From: Sphingopyxis sp. USTB-05
GTDB lineage: Bacteria; Pseudomonadota; Alphaproteobacteria; Sphingomonadales; Sphingomonadaceae
Direction: 5' to 3'
Assembly (NCBI RefSeq): GCF_023822045.1
Contig: NZ_CP084712.1
Location: 3,162,001-3,226,000, forward strand
DNA length: 64,000 bases
Shown: positions 48,430 to 52,452 of the stretch, piece after piece
How the letters are laid out: the number at the start of each line of letters is the position of its first letter
Position numbering within the stretch: position 1 is the first letter of the stretch
Program-made: the position numbers and the translations under genes
Notes under the pieces: model-generated
What the model saw: the letters and a program-made list of their open reading frames with translations, nothing else
What the model was told of the DNA's origin: nothing
Databases searched by the model: none

Positions 48430-49491
48430 ATGCCGTTGTTAGAAGCCCGCAAGACCTACAAGCCCTTCGAATATCCGTGGGCCTATGATTTCTGGAAACG
48501 CCAGCAGCAGATCCACTGGGTTCCCGAGGAAGTGCCGCTGGGCGAGGATTGCCGCGACTGGGCGCAAAAGATCAGCGATCATGAGCGCAACCTGCTCACG
48601 CAGATTTTCCGCTTCTTCACCCAGGCCGATATCGAGGTGCAGGATTGCTACCACGACAAATATGGCCGCGTGTTCAAGCCGACCGAGATCAAGATGATGC
48701 TGACCGCGTTCAGCAACATGGAGACGGTGCATATTGCGGCGTACAGCCACCTGCTCGACACCATCGGCATGCCCGAGAGCGAATATGGCATGTTCCTCGA
48801 ATATGACGAGATGCGCGCCAAGCACGACTATATGCAGCAGTTCGGCGTCGAGAATGACGAGGATATCGCCCGCACGCTGGCGATGTTCGGCGGCTTTACC
48901 GAGGGGCTTCAGCTCTTCGCCAGCTTTGCGATGCTGATGAACTTCCCGCGCTTCAACAAGATGAAGGGCATGGGCCAGATCGTCAGCTGGTCGATCCGCG
49001 ACGAAAGCCTCCACTGCGAAGGCATCATCAAGCTGTTCCACGCCTTTACCAAGGAACGCGACTGCCTGACCAAGGCGGTGAAGGAAGACATTATCGACAC
49101 GTGCCAGAAAACGGTGCGGCTCGAGGATGCGTTCATCGACCTCGCGTTCGAACAGGGCCCCGTCCCCGGCATGACGCCGAAGGAGATCAAGCGCTACATC
49201 CGCTACATCGCCGACTGGCGCCTTGGGCAGCTTGGGTTCCAGCCGATCTATATGATCGACGAACACCCGCTCCCCTGGCTCGCCCCGCTGCTGAACGGCG
49301 TCGAGCACGCCAACTTCTTCGAAACCCGCGCGACGGAATATTCGAAGGGCGCGACGCGCGGCGACTGGAACACCGTGTGGTCCAGCTTCGACAACCGCAA
49401 AAAGGCGAAAGCCAACGACGACACCGGCGCCCTCGAAGCCGACGCCGACGGCGAAGACATGTTCGCCAAGGCCGGCATCGCCGCCGAATAA
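48430..49491 (+). CDS. nrdB: Ribonucleoside-diphosphate reductase, beta subunit (class I)
   Basis: 353 residues. Ferritin-like radical-generating subunit. Metal ligands are visible in FTQADIEVQ, NMETVHIAAYSHLL (Glu and His, with the radical Tyr in AAYSHLL) and RDESLHCEG. The intact Tyr argues for a tyrosyl-radical (Ia/Ib-like) enzyme rather than class Ic, where it is Phe. The acidic tail (DTGALEADADGEDMF) contains the peptide that docks on NrdA. It follows nrdA and should be controlled with it by NrdR. Confidence 0.96.
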   Translation: MPLLEARKTYKPFEYPWAYDFWKRQQQIHWVPEEVPLGEDCRDWAQKISDHERNLLTQIFRFFTQADIEVQDCYHDKYGRVFKPTEIKMMLTAFSNMETVHIAAYSHLLDTIGMPESEYGMFLEYDEMRAKHDYMQQFGVENDEDIARTLAMFGGFTEGLQLFASFAMLMNFPRFNKMKGMGQIVSWSIRDESLHCEGIIKLFHAFTKERDCLTKAVKEDIIDTCQKTVRLEDAFIDLAFEQGPVPGMTPKEIKRYIRYIADWRLGQLGFQPIYMIDEHPLPWLAPLLNGVEHANFFETRATEYSKGATRGDWNTVWSSFDNRKKAKANDDTGALEADADGEDMFAKAGIAAE

Positions 49492-49530
49492 GCCATCAGC
49501 CCCTCCCCAGACGGGAGGAGCCCTATTTGC

Positions 49531-49555
49531 GAACCCCGGCGCAAGCCGGGGCCCA
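49531..49555. repeat. Single arm of the family-D repeat
   Basis: GAACCCCGGCGCAAGCCGGG plus GCCCA, a self-complementary half element without its partner. It lies between nrdB and the 76-residue gene, 300 bp before the AT-rich insert. Confidence 0.75.
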
Positions 49556-49613
49556 CCGACCAAAGAGCCAAGCCCGCGAGCAAACGCAGGCCAACAAGAC
49601 GTCAGAGGCCAAA

Positions 49614-49844
49614 ATGACCGACAAGCAAAAACAGAAACTGCTAATCCTCAGCCAGCCGCAACGCGCGACCCTCGAAGGCCTCTCGAACCGCCGCCCCCAA
49701 CTCCCCACCGACCCGATCCGCGACGAACTCGTCGCGCTGGGCCTGGTCGTGAAACAGGGCGCGAAATGGGCGCTGACCCAGACGGGCAAGAAGGTGCTGG
49801 CGGCGAGTTCGAACCGGCGCAACTCGGGCGGGTTTTCGGTTTGA
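49614..49844 (+). CDS. Small basic protein of unknown function, 76 residues
   Basis: It starts MTDKQKQKLLILSQPQRATL with AGAGG seven bases upstream. LVALGLVVKQGAKWALTQTGKKVL has the shape of the second half of a winged helix, so a small DNA-binding protein is possible but not established. The tail ends in Ser/Asn/Gly. It precedes the AT-rich insert; its composition is like the chromosome's, so it is probably native. Confidence 0.65.
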   Translation: MTDKQKQKLLILSQPQRATLEGLSNRRPQLPTDPIRDELVALGLVVKQGAKWALTQTGKKVLAASSNRRNSGGFSV

Positions 49845-49875
49845 TGAAAGTATCGAAAGATTGCCTATTTATGCT

Positions 49876-49902
49876 AGAAGCTCCCAACGAATAGGGGCTT
49901 CT
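49876..49902 (+). promoter_or_regulatory. Imperfect inverted repeat upstream of the BrnT operon
   Basis: AGAAGCTCCC and GGGGCTTCT pair around an 8-base loop, 12 bp before the brnT-like ATG. The position suits an operator for autoregulation by the toxin-antitoxin complex, or a leader hairpin. There is no T-run after it. Confidence 0.45.
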
Positions 49903-49913
49903 TCTGAGACACG

Positions 49914-50207
49914 ATGGAAATCCACGGATATTGGACTTGGGATCAGAACAAGAATGCCGTTAATCTCGGCAAGCACGGTCTTTCTTTCGAGACAGCAACC
50001 TTAGTGTTTACAGACACCCTAGCGCTAACAACTATCGATCCATATGAACATGAAGAGCGCTATCGGACGATCGGCGTCGTTGGGCATCTGACCATAGTTG
50101 TGATACACACCGAACCCGTGGATTCCAGCGATGCCTTCATACCCGGCCGCATTATAAGCGCGAGGAAGGCGACGCGTATCGAGCGCCTCGACTACGAAAA
50201 TGGATAA
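49914..50207 (+). CDS. BrnT-family (DUF497) ribonuclease toxin
   Basis: 97 residues. The family signature is WTWDQNKNAVNLGKHGLSFETATLVFTD, then EERYRTIGVVG and IISARKATRIERLDYEN at the end, where the RxxSARxAxxxER motif of BrnT holds catalytic or structural residues. BrnT is a RelE-fold endoribonuclease normally neutralised by BrnA, a ribbon-helix-helix antitoxin, encoded next. Here the next gene is not an ordinary BrnA. It overlaps that gene by 8 bp and begins an AT-rich block, suggesting acquisition. brnT is named by family only. Confidence 0.9.
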   Translation: MEIHGYWTWDQNKNAVNLGKHGLSFETATLVFTDTLALTTIDPYEHEERYRTIGVVGHLTIVVIHTEPVDSSDAFIPGRIISARKATRIERLDYENG

Positions 50208-50859
50208 AAAGGCCCTTCCCGAACATATTCAACGAGAGCTGGACTTTGCGTCCTCAATCTCGGACGATCAGATCGACCTGAGTGACATTCCTCAGACAAG
50301 CTTTAGAGGTGGGGACCGCGGAAGGTTTCTACCCTATTCGCTCATGCGTAGCGCATATGATGTACGGTCAATCGCTAACTGGTTCATCGACAAGGCAGGC
50401 CAAAAGAAAACCTCGATTTCCAACATGTCTTTGAATAAGCTCGTATATTTTACTTATGAGCAGGCGATTTTACTTTTGGGGCGCATCCTTACAGAGGCTC
50501 GCCCTCAAGCTTGGCAACACGGCCCAGTATTTCGAGAAATTTATCATCCCAACAAGGGGAATGCCTCGGAAACCGTCTCAAAGCGCATTCAAAAATTCGA
50601 CCCCAAAACTCGTAAGCTTGCAGATTGTGAGGATAATTTTCCCCTTGAAGTGATAGAGCTTTTAGAACAGATTTGGAACAAATTTGGCTCTAAGAGCGGA
50701 TCAGACCTTAGAAATATTTCTCATGATGTTGACGGAGCCTGGAAGCATTCGAGAGATCAAGGAAATCGCGGTAACGCAACACTTGAAATAACCCCTGCAA
50801 CAATCCTTACATCAGCGCCGAGGCGCCTACGAAATGGATATAATTCAGCAAAAAATTGA
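50200..50859 (+). CDS. Chimeric antitoxin candidate: BrnT-partner N-terminal signature fused to a Panacea (SocA-like, DUF4065) domain
   Basis: 219 residues. Residues about 17-48 (ASSISDDQIDLSDIPQ then GDRGRFLPYS) resemble the N-terminal tail of antitoxins encoded beside BrnT, where SDDEIDTSDIPE and a RGRFYRP-like element precede the DNA-binding fold. Here no ribbon-helix-helix follows. Instead residues about 52-200 form a Panacea domain: SAYDVRSIANWFIDKAG, SISNMSLNKLVYFTYEQAILLLG, AWQHGPVFREIYHPNKG and ISHDVDGAWKHSR. Panacea domains are known to neutralise many unrelated toxins. It overlaps brnT by 8 bp and the next gene by 26 bp. The antitoxin role is inferred. Confidence 0.82.
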   Translation: MDKKALPEHIQRELDFASSISDDQIDLSDIPQTSFRGGDRGRFLPYSLMRSAYDVRSIANWFIDKAGQKKTSISNMSLNKLVYFTYEQAILLLGRILTEARPQAWQHGPVFREIYHPNKGNASETVSKRIQKFDPKTRKLADCEDNFPLEVIELLEQIWNKFGSKSGSDLRNISHDVDGAWKHSRDQGNRGNATLEITPATILTSAPRRLRNGYNSAKN

Positions 50860-51532
50860 TCGCCTTCTTTCGCCGCGATCAGTGATTAACTGGACAAGTA
50901 TAAATTTCCCGAGATCTGATGACACGGAGGAGGCGATTTGGAAAATTGCCAATCTTCTAAATTTGCCATCATTGAACTCAATCTATGCGCGATGCTCGCG
51001 CCTAGCATATCGCCAATCCACGATCGAAGAAGAAATGGAGAAAATAAGAAGAAGTAAATCTTCATACATACAGACAATGGGGTCAGAAATACTTCCTGCA
51101 TTCCAAGAATTTTTGTCCACAAGACAAATTGATGCGATCCCGGACCTCCACGAATTTACAGACTATATACACATATATATTGGGGACGATATCCCTGACT
51201 TTCCGATAAGAATAAGGCCTTCATTCATCGCGATAGAAGATGGAAAACTTACCCCATATTTCCTCATAGGTTGGTCAGATCTTTCTCTTAGCCCTTACCA
51301 AAAACAACTTCTCTCGACCGTCATTTGCAATTCCATTTTAACTCATCAAGATTTCATTGGCTCCGATGCAATGATTGTCGTTATGCCGCGTATGGAATAT
51401 TCGAATGACAGAGATGTTCGATGGTGGAAAGCTCGCTCCTACGCGTCGCTAACCGATGACCAATTCGCAGATCAGGCGTCTCGATTTCAGCGAGGCTTAG
51501 TCAATACGATACATAGATTGAGGAGATCTTAG
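50834..51532 (+). CDS. Unrecognised protein in the BrnT/Panacea operon, 232 residues
   Basis: No family recognised. The N-terminal half is charged and helical (a stretch near STIEEEMEKIRRSKSSYIQT could be a coiled coil). The C-terminal half is richer in strands, with YFLIGWSDLSLSPYQKQLL, DAMIVVMPRMEYSNDRDVRWWKARSYASLTDDQFADQASRFQRGL. There is no signal peptide or membrane helix. The ATG lies 26 bp inside the upstream gene, implying coupled expression. It is the most AT-rich part of the block: 45 of 120 bases are G or C in 51061-51180. It could be a third toxin-antitoxin component, a sensor or an effector. Confidence 0.7.
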   Translation: MDIIQQKIDRLLSPRSVINWTSINFPRSDDTEEAIWKIANLLNLPSLNSIYARCSRLAYRQSTIEEEMEKIRRSKSSYIQTMGSEILPAFQEFLSTRQIDAIPDLHEFTDYIHIYIGDDIPDFPIRIRPSFIAIEDGKLTPYFLIGWSDLSLSPYQKQLLSTVICNSILTHQDFIGSDAMIVVMPRMEYSNDRDVRWWKARSYASLTDDQFADQASRFQRGLVNTIHRLRRS

Positions 51533-51581
51533 TGGAATTACGGTGACAGCTTACTGAACCCCAAATTGCCCTGAGCAGCAT

Positions 51582-51609
51582 GGATCCCGGATCAAGTCCG
51601 GCATGACGA
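51582..51609. repeat. Single arm of the family-C repeat at the 3' edge of the AT-rich block
   Basis: GGATCCCGGATCAAGTCCGG then CATGACGA, one arm of the element seen complete at 33202 and 57784. It sits 50 bp past the last gene of the insert, where composition returns to GC-rich. Confidence 0.75.
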
Positions 51610-51714
51610 TGAGGGAAGGACTAACCTCTTACGTCTGCACCCCAAATCCTATTTCGCACACCCCACCCAAAAAACCCCTGTCCTACATTCTCCCGCCATG
51701 CTCCAAACTGGCAG

Positions 51715-52452
51715 ATGAGCCACATCGCCCCCATCCCCTCGCCCGGCGCCATCCCCGCCCAGACCCCCACCCCTACCCCCACGGCCGCCGCCCCCGCGCT
51801 CGACGCGCACGGCCACGACCCCGCCGTTTACGACTGGATCCCGGTGCTGAAAAAGCGCCGCCACGATGGCTGGTCGCCCGACAAGCAGCGCGCCTTTATC
51901 GAGGCGCTGGCCGACTGCGGCTCGGTCGCCTGTGCCGCGCGCGCCGTCAATATGTCCGAATCCTCCGCCTATCGCCTGCGCCGCGCGCCGGGGGCGGAGG
52001 CGTTCGATCGCGCTTGGGGCGCGGCGATCGATGCGGCGTCAAAGAAATTGCTCGACGCCGCCTTTGAACGCGCGCTGGTCGGCACCGACGAGCCGGTGTT
52101 CAACCGCGAAGGCAACCGCGTCGGCCGCCGACTGCGCCAGAGCGACCGCTTGCTGATGTTCCTGCTGCGCGCCTATGGCCCCGATTGTTTCCGCAGCAAC
52201 GCCGCCGGCCAAGCCGCCCCCACCGCGCCCCCGGTCGCCGAAGCGCTGGTCCATCTTCACCCCGAACCGCCCGCCGCGCCTGCCGCCCTGATGGCGCCCG
52301 AGGATCTCGCCGTGGCGCTGGAGGTGGCCGATCTGGGGGAGGGCGAGTTGCCGCACTGGTATCGCGACGGCCCGGCCGAAGCGGTCCCGGTGTCGCGAGC
52401 GATGCCGGCACCCGATACCCACACCCTTGACGATGAGGCTGAACTTTACTGA
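51715..52452 (+). CDS. Helix-turn-helix protein resembling a phage terminase small subunit N-domain
   Basis: 245 residues. After a Pro/Thr/Ala-rich leader (about 1-30), residues 50-100 hold WSPDKQRAFIEALADCGSVACAARAVNMSESSAYRLRRAPGAEAF, a helix-turn-helix with the layout of terminase small subunits and Mu-type regulators. A helical region (WGAAIDAASKKLLDAAFERAL) and RQSDRLLMFLLRAYGPDCFR follow, then a Pro/Ala-rich tail. Such proteins occur as stand-alone genes in sphingomonads. No other phage gene is nearby. DNA binding is likely; the role is unknown. Confidence 0.7.
   Translation: MSHIAPIPSPGAIPAQTPTPTPTAAAPALDAHGHDPAVYDWIPVLKKRRHDGWSPDKQRAFIEALADCGSVACAARAVNMSESSAYRLRRAPGAEAFDRAWGAAIDAASKKLLDAAFERALVGTDEPVFNREGNRVGRRLRQSDRLLMFLLRAYGPDCFRSNAAGQAAPTAPPVAEALVHLHPEPPAAPAALMAPEDLAVALEVADLGEGELPHWYRDGPAEAVPVSRAMPAPDTHTLDDEAELY

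Follow-up and report, generated by a model that had tools for sequence, protein, structure and literature searches.

BrnT is an RNA-cutting toxin. SocA and SocB make up a type VI toxin-antitoxin system of Caulobacter, in which SocA delivers SocB to a protease; SocB is a toxin that acts on the sliding clamp and jams DNA replication. The stretch of Sphingopyxis DNA analysed here (64,000 nt, referred to as the window) contains a three-gene operon with likenesses to both systems. The reading that we prefer, with a probability of roughly 0.6, is that a BrnT-BrnA system and a SocAB-like unit have merged, so that one chimeric, two-headed antitoxin stands between two unrelated toxins. The chimeric architecture of the operon is in itself well supported.

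Layout and base composition of the module

The first-pass annotation of this DNA described a BrnT gene, a Panacea-domain gene overlapping it by 8 bp and a third gene overlapping the second by 26 bp. All three open reading frames are present with these overlaps, gene 2 (219 aa) covering 50200-50859. The features of the module and its borders are:

48430..49491, + strand: nrdB, encoding the small subunit of ribonucleotide reductase and bordering the hotspot upstream; named from its relatives in L017 and L020 (PF00268)
49614..49844, + strand: orf76, border ORF kept in G042, a genome of the same genus (E 9.9e-42 in L064)
49876..49902, no strand: small, weak inverted repeat just 5′ of BrnT, perhaps an operator or a leader hairpin
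49914..50207, + strand: gene 1, BrnT-family toxin, 97 aa (PF04365)
50200..50340, + strand: neck of BrnA type at residues 1-47 of gene 2, predicted to be the arm that binds BrnT (fusion-neck profile against 7vd7 chain B)
50341..50859, + strand: gene 2 residues 48-219, Panacea (SocA-like) part replacing the RHH domain (PF13274, NF047745)
50834..51532, + strand: gene 3, 232 aa, distantly related to the SocB family, predicted second toxin (profile searches and predicted fold)
51715..52452, + strand: orf245, ORF at the downstream border, also retained in G042; relatives lie near similar cargo elsewhere

While the window as a whole has a G+C content of 64%, genes 1, 2 and 3 have 50%, 45% and 42%, respectively. 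Windows of 300 bases between 48000 and 54000 gave values of 0.40–0.53 over the module and 0.56–0.73 away from it, in agreement with the AT-rich insert that had been proposed; the G+C counts cited for it, 45 of 120 bases (51061-51180) and 38 of 60 (52021-52080), were exact. G+C at third codon positions was 0.56 for BrnT and 0.54 for the neck, against 0.41 for the rest of gene 2 plus gene 3, which counts in favour of the merger. The inverted repeat noted at 49876 does exist (arms 49876-49884 and 49894-49902, with eight of nine positions paired), but it is weak: folded as RNA it gives a hairpin of −13 kcal/mol, with z −1.9 and 7 of 200 shuffles doing equally well, and 13 further inverted repeats of comparable length lie close to it. 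Promoter-like and terminator-like sites around the module showed no excess over shuffles. The start contexts of gene 2 (50190-50206, CTACGAAAATGGATA) and gene 3 (50826-50842, CTACGAAATGGATAT) are short and near-identical, perhaps by chance.

BrnT and the N-terminal segment of gene 2

The identities assigned to the first two genes were upheld, gene 1 matching the BrnT family (PF04365) with 75.3 bits (cut-off 34.5) and gene 2 the Panacea domain (PF13274) with 62.3 bits (cut-off 25.7) at residues 78-182. Among solved structures, the window's BrnT, which was aligned with the BrnTs of loci L012, L015 and L077, is closest to PDB 7vd7 chain A, named ‘toxin’ (59 bits, residues 7-97). An ordinary BrnA with a ribbon-helix-helix (RHH) domain was ruled out as its partner: PF14384, the RHH BrnA family, had no match in gene 2 at E ≤ 1, nor in its N-terminus at E ≤ 10. 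BrnT is thus followed by a Panacea fusion, as the annotation held, although this description was incomplete, since the N-terminus of gene 2 itself resembles the toxin-binding segment of BrnA.

The Panacea proteins encoded behind BrnT in the window, L012 and L015 share an N-terminal extension with the motif IDxSDIPE..DWS.A.RG. When PDB sequences were searched with a profile of these three extensions alone (A12), 7vd7 chain B was found at E 7e-9, the next match being at 0.42. Chain B, named antitoxin, is a peptide of 44 residues in a structure that also contains the BrnT-like toxin; given that chain A of the same entry is the closest relative of the window's BrnT, the extension resembles a stretch of antitoxin solved with its toxin. 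The window's neck alone reached 7vd7 at E 0.23, ranked behind an unrelated match, and the neck of L012 searched alone against the PDB gave no 7vd7 match. Both results count against the merger, and the resemblance is therefore claimed for the group of three. A protein search with residues 1-56 of gene 2 returned only three proteins, namely that of the window and two that are closely related to it. Among the 16 Panacea loci described below, the neck is present only in the three with BrnT upstream; the neck profile, which these three match by construction, gave the other 13 Panaceas scores of at most 0.6 bits. Panaceas with the extension are 219–256 aa long (n = 3, the annotated starts of L012 and L015 being possibly too long), and the other 13 are 162–194 aa long.

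The same neck is found on BrnA proteins. In genome G081 (locus L077, the same as L141), a BrnT 49% identical to that of the window is followed by a BrnA whose neck scored 57.5 bits and whose PF14384 RHH domain scored 58.5 bits; in a shuffle test this neck reached 60.3 bits, against 8.8 for the best shuffle (1722 scored of 2000). Over the class, the neck was found in 7 of 215 genomes, including that of the window. At L169, L170 and L171 it begins an RHH BrnA (PF14384, 54–58 bits) located behind a BrnT (82–90 bits to the window's), while at L173 and L174 the picture is weaker and partial. Of 29 BrnT loci that were read, six gave no BrnT ORF when queried with the window's BrnT; the partners at the other 23, scored for the neck only, provided one strong match, the pair of G081. 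The occurrence of the neck elsewhere on RHH BrnAs behind BrnTs makes a BrnA with its DNA-binding half exchanged for a Panacea domain the best reading of gene 2. At L172:1-1840 (− strand), BrnT is followed by a neck-starting protein with similarity to DEAD helicases, the second case of a neck joined to something other than an RHH domain.

The N-terminal extensions of Panacea named in the available part of PMC8832971 are HTH domains and PAD1. A BrnA neck on Panacea is not described in the available parts of that article or of PMC10440598, PMC11980606 and PMC12795458, supplementary tables aside, where it may have been listed earlier; among the matches listed in a literature search, nothing joined BrnT with Panacea or cited 7VD7.

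Gene 3, its Panacea partner and SocB

A first profile scan of genome contigs (alignment A1) confirmed no gene 3 locus; a profile search of these contigs with a wider alignment gave nine, seven of them new. Gene 3 was detected in 9 of 397 genomes of the family, the window's included, and the pair that it forms with Panacea is absent from the other 388. In all 16 distinct loci the Panacea gene directly precedes gene 3, the two overlapping or lying no more than 18 bases apart (the contig ends L015 and L016 overlap within one gene, with 98.8% identity over 333 bases, and were counted once; the gene 3 of L015 is cut). BrnT was found upstream in only three loci, those of the window, L012 and L015; at L032, the 228 bases upstream of Panacea are too few to judge. 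The distances among Panacea proteins and among gene 3 proteins were correlated (r 0.76, n 16, 0 of 5000 permutations), shared species history contributing to the value. The stable unit is Panacea plus gene 3, and gene 3 is tied to Panacea rather than to BrnT. Of the three-gene unit put forward by the annotation, this pair stands, BrnT being added to it in three cases. The annotation had also conceded that rarity of the trio elsewhere would tell against it, a point touched by the counts: the trio is present in three of the nine genomes bearing gene 3, two of which are incomplete drafts (84% and 90%), and this counts against the merger as well. However, the three trios are only 32–44% identical to each other in genes 2 and 3 and cluster in the Panacea tree (0.81), although proteins as short as these give weak trees, and in the gene 3 tree the outgroup was placed beside the trio loci. 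On the grounds of this divergence and grouping, the arrangement looks old and maintained.

Gene 3 had been reported as unrecognised, and so it proved: assignment to a known family was rejected, as it had no match above any cut-off in Pfam or NCBIfam, and PADLOC and PHROGs gave no match at E ≤ 1. The 60 family members gave just two chance-level matches in Pfam, each in a single member, and the gene 3 profile gave one match to PDB sequences, at E 0.94. Neither the gene 3 family nor SocB was found on plasmids (one query each) or on viral contigs. Structure prediction suggests a PD-(D/E)XK-like fold that lacks the catalytic motif. The expected catalytic positions of alignment A4, with the motif placed by strand order, are occupied by T, S or A (130), I or V (145) and W (147, in 60 of 60 members). 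Gene 3 was not assigned to the PD-(D/E)XK nucleases, the D … (D/E)xK residues being replaced. The predicted models of gene 3 and SocB have the same order of elements and the same fold neighbours, which counts for the merger. No article combining SocB with ‘nuclease fold’ was among the matches listed in the literature search.

The Panacea half of gene 2 scored 95 bits against the SocA model NF047745 (residues 53-203), below the cut-off of 190. A SocA search of 190 genomes of the class found L104 and L105 above the cut-off. The protein downstream of the L104 SocA scored 299 bits to the SocB model NF047746 (cut-off 210), and that of L105 scored 168 bits; the SocB of L134 scored 317 bits, and those of L136 and L137 169 and 132 bits, below the cut-off. 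NF047746, though present in the library, had no match to gene 3 at E ≤ 1, a result counted against the merger. Profiles were then compared through cross-searches of the same 4559 ORFs. The profile of the five SocBs found an intermediate protein, L138, at E 2.1e-7; the gene 3 profile found L106 at E 3.6e-10 and L138 at 5.8e-6; and a profile of L106 plus L138 found gene 3 family members from E 9e-7 down and the SocB of L104 at 2.6e-4. The gene 3 proteins of the window, L012 and L015 appeared in neither the SocB-profile nor the intermediate-profile list, so the link to SocB holds for the family and not for these three directly. Both L106 and L138 follow a Panacea gene, that of L138 having been recognised by eye; the gene 3-like ORF of L138 is short. 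Direct comparison of the gene 3 profile with one of three SocBs was colinear over 189 columns and weak (E 8.9e-4, probability 23%). These searches point to the gene 3 family as a remote relative of SocB, joined to it via L106 and L138.

All five SocBs and the two intermediates have a short hydrophobic C-terminal tail (examples are QLSLI, DDLFS and GSLI), which in SocB could be a sliding-clamp motif. A loose pattern for such tails flagged 9 of the 60 gene 3 sequences (P0003-P0006, P0021, P0023, P0034, L014 and L017). Only in L017 (L017:6177-6959, QDDLFR) was a true tail judged to be present by eye; the other flagged segments lie within the last helix or adjoin it. The window's gene 3 ends in its last helix and has no clamp-like tail, which is counted against the merger; its target may differ from that of SocB.

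Gene 3 is predicted to be the second toxin of the module, although its toxicity is not evident because both the catalytic motif and the SocB clamp-like tail are missing. The same absences would suit a module in which BrnT is the sole toxin, Panacea merely replaces the RHH domain, serving stability, regulation or delivery to a protease, and gene 3 acts on the Panacea protein as a helper, chaperone or sensor. The available part of PMC8832971 does report conserved, accessory third genes beside some Panacea pairs, each in a small fraction of loci. However, gene 3 pairs with Panacea at 13 loci in which BrnT was not found (L032 being undecidable), which argues that it is not an accessory of BrnT, and its family is remotely akin to a toxin. 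We thus regard a single-toxin module as unlikely.

The site behind nrdB and comparison with known systems

Eight of the 16 Panacea-gene 3 loci lie behind nrdB. This gene is directly 5′ of Panacea in 7 of the 13 BrnT-free loci, and in the window it is 5′ of the whole module. With the window's nrdB ORF as query, nrdB was found in 116 of 119 genomes. Forty nrdB loci were taken from the best-scoring of these 116 genomes, leaving out three near contig ends; the first 1.2 kb behind nrdB showed a drop in G+C of more than 8 points at 18 of the 40, compared with 1 of 40 for a control stretch 4 kb off. Thirty-four ORFs from this site were compared with Pfam, 33 of them picked by hand from 148, mostly for AT-richness, and one from L017, so they provide no estimate of frequency. 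They included BglII and NaeI restriction enzymes, DNA methylases, a ThsB-like TIR protein, DUF4062, DarT, SIR2, DUF4917 and AAA_21. In PADLOC, 257 models matched, and the matches listed were mainly methylases, restriction enzymes and ThsB. In G042, where orf76 and orf245 are both retained, different cargo lies between the two; the neck-bearing BrnT-BrnA pair of G081 sits behind nrdB and before a relative of orf245. The stretch behind nrdB (49492-51714 in the window; L064-L103) is an insertion hotspot for AT-rich cargo in Sphingomonadaceae. The mobile toxin-antitoxin or defence module envisaged by the annotation gains from this location, a cargo site with defence-type genes in other genomes. 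Among the literature matches listed there was no nrdB-defence hotspot in Sphingomonas.

The hotspot in L017 also carries a DUF4917 gene (L017:5031-6158, 215.7 bits), immediately behind the pair of Panacea and gene 3. Relatives of orf245 were seen near such cargo at L012:7155-7970, L029:6897-8171, L077:3395-4078 and L084:2892-3425; that of L012 is beside the BrnT module, though no nrdB was seen in that stretch.

The frequent position behind nrdB, with an overlap of 4 bp in L020, could also mean that the Panacea-gene 3 pair serves nrdAB in dNTP supply, the module being a variant regulator of the nrd operon. We consider this highly improbable. In other genomes the site bears genes for restriction enzymes, TIR and SIR2 proteins and ATPases, the drop in G+C described above sets it apart from the control stretch, and the pair, missing from most of the family, also occurs at loci where no nrdB was seen. 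A shared function with nrdAB was accordingly judged less likely than a hotspot.

The company of defence-type genes would likewise suit a defence gated by a sensor, in which gene 3 perceives a phage or replication signal, pulls on Panacea and frees the BrnT ribonuclease, acting as a trigger and not as a toxin. A dead nuclease fold would be appropriate for a sensor of nucleic acids or proteins, and the helicase-like protein of L172 would fit a sensor domain mounted on the neck. Against this, at the loci in which no BrnT was found the Panacea-gene 3 pair must have a role of its own; we hold this scheme to be quite improbable.

Under the preferred reading of a merger, a BrnT gene and the neck of BrnA would have been joined in frame to a Panacea gene already partnered with a SocB-like gene, the RHH DNA-binding domain of BrnA being lost in the process. 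Stand-alone Panacea-gene 3 pairs and a stand-alone BrnT-BrnA pair with this neck are both seen at the hotspot, and the presence there of both parent kinds suggests that the fusion could have formed behind nrdB. We infer that the products of genes 1 and 3 would each be toxic, the purpose of the module being defence or addiction, and that gene 2 would neutralise both, each half acting on its neighbour. The neck would bind BrnT and block its ribonuclease; the Panacea part would restrain the SocB-like protein, either by sequestering it or by handing it to a protease in the manner of SocA. Loss of the gene 2 protein would then free both toxins: BrnT would attack RNA, and the gene 3 protein would probably work through binding, with replication or something else as its target. 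The full version of this mechanism, namely a bivalent neck-plus-Panacea antitoxin against two flanking toxins, formed by fusion of two modules that both occur at the hotspot, whose loss frees a ribonuclease and a replication-type inhibitor, with the SocB family being PD-(D/E)XK binders that have lost catalysis, is more tentative, and we give it slightly less than even odds. If it is true, this would be a natural instance of Panacea joined to a second toxin-binding segment of foreign origin, each half having been assigned to its own toxin by comparative evidence, and part of the puzzle of Panacea promiscuity could be tested by splitting one protein in two. SocB gains a predicted fold and wider relatives in Sphingomonadaceae, and the analysis points to a hotspot at which such mergers may be made.

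Like BrnT/BrnA (PDB 3u97, 7vd7), the module has BrnT first and an overlapping antitoxin second that starts with the neck; unlike it, it has Panacea in place of the PF14384 RHH domain, and a third gene follows. PD-(D/E)XK exonucleases (Dna2, AdnA, Cas4/ACE1, MGME1, RecE) may share the fold predicted for gene 3 and SocB, but in gene 3 the residues at the expected catalytic positions are replaced. The likeness to SocA/SocB (NF047745, NF047746) lies in a SocA-like Panacea followed by a gene of ∼230 aa with a similar predicted fold, and in remote kinship at the family level through intermediates; the differences are that gene 2 scores below the SocA cut-off, that gene 3 has neither a SocB match nor a clamp-like tail, and that the module has an extra BrnT and neck. 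Finally, as in the type II PanA/PanT systems described in the available part of PMC8832971, a Panacea antitoxin lies beside a conserved partner gene within 100 nt. Such systems are recognised by a partner no more than 100 nt away that is kept in at least two species, and here the partner overlaps Panacea or lies at most 18 bases from it in all 16 loci. The module differs from PanA/PanT in that its Panacea extension is a BrnA-type neck and that it has two candidate toxins per antitoxin.
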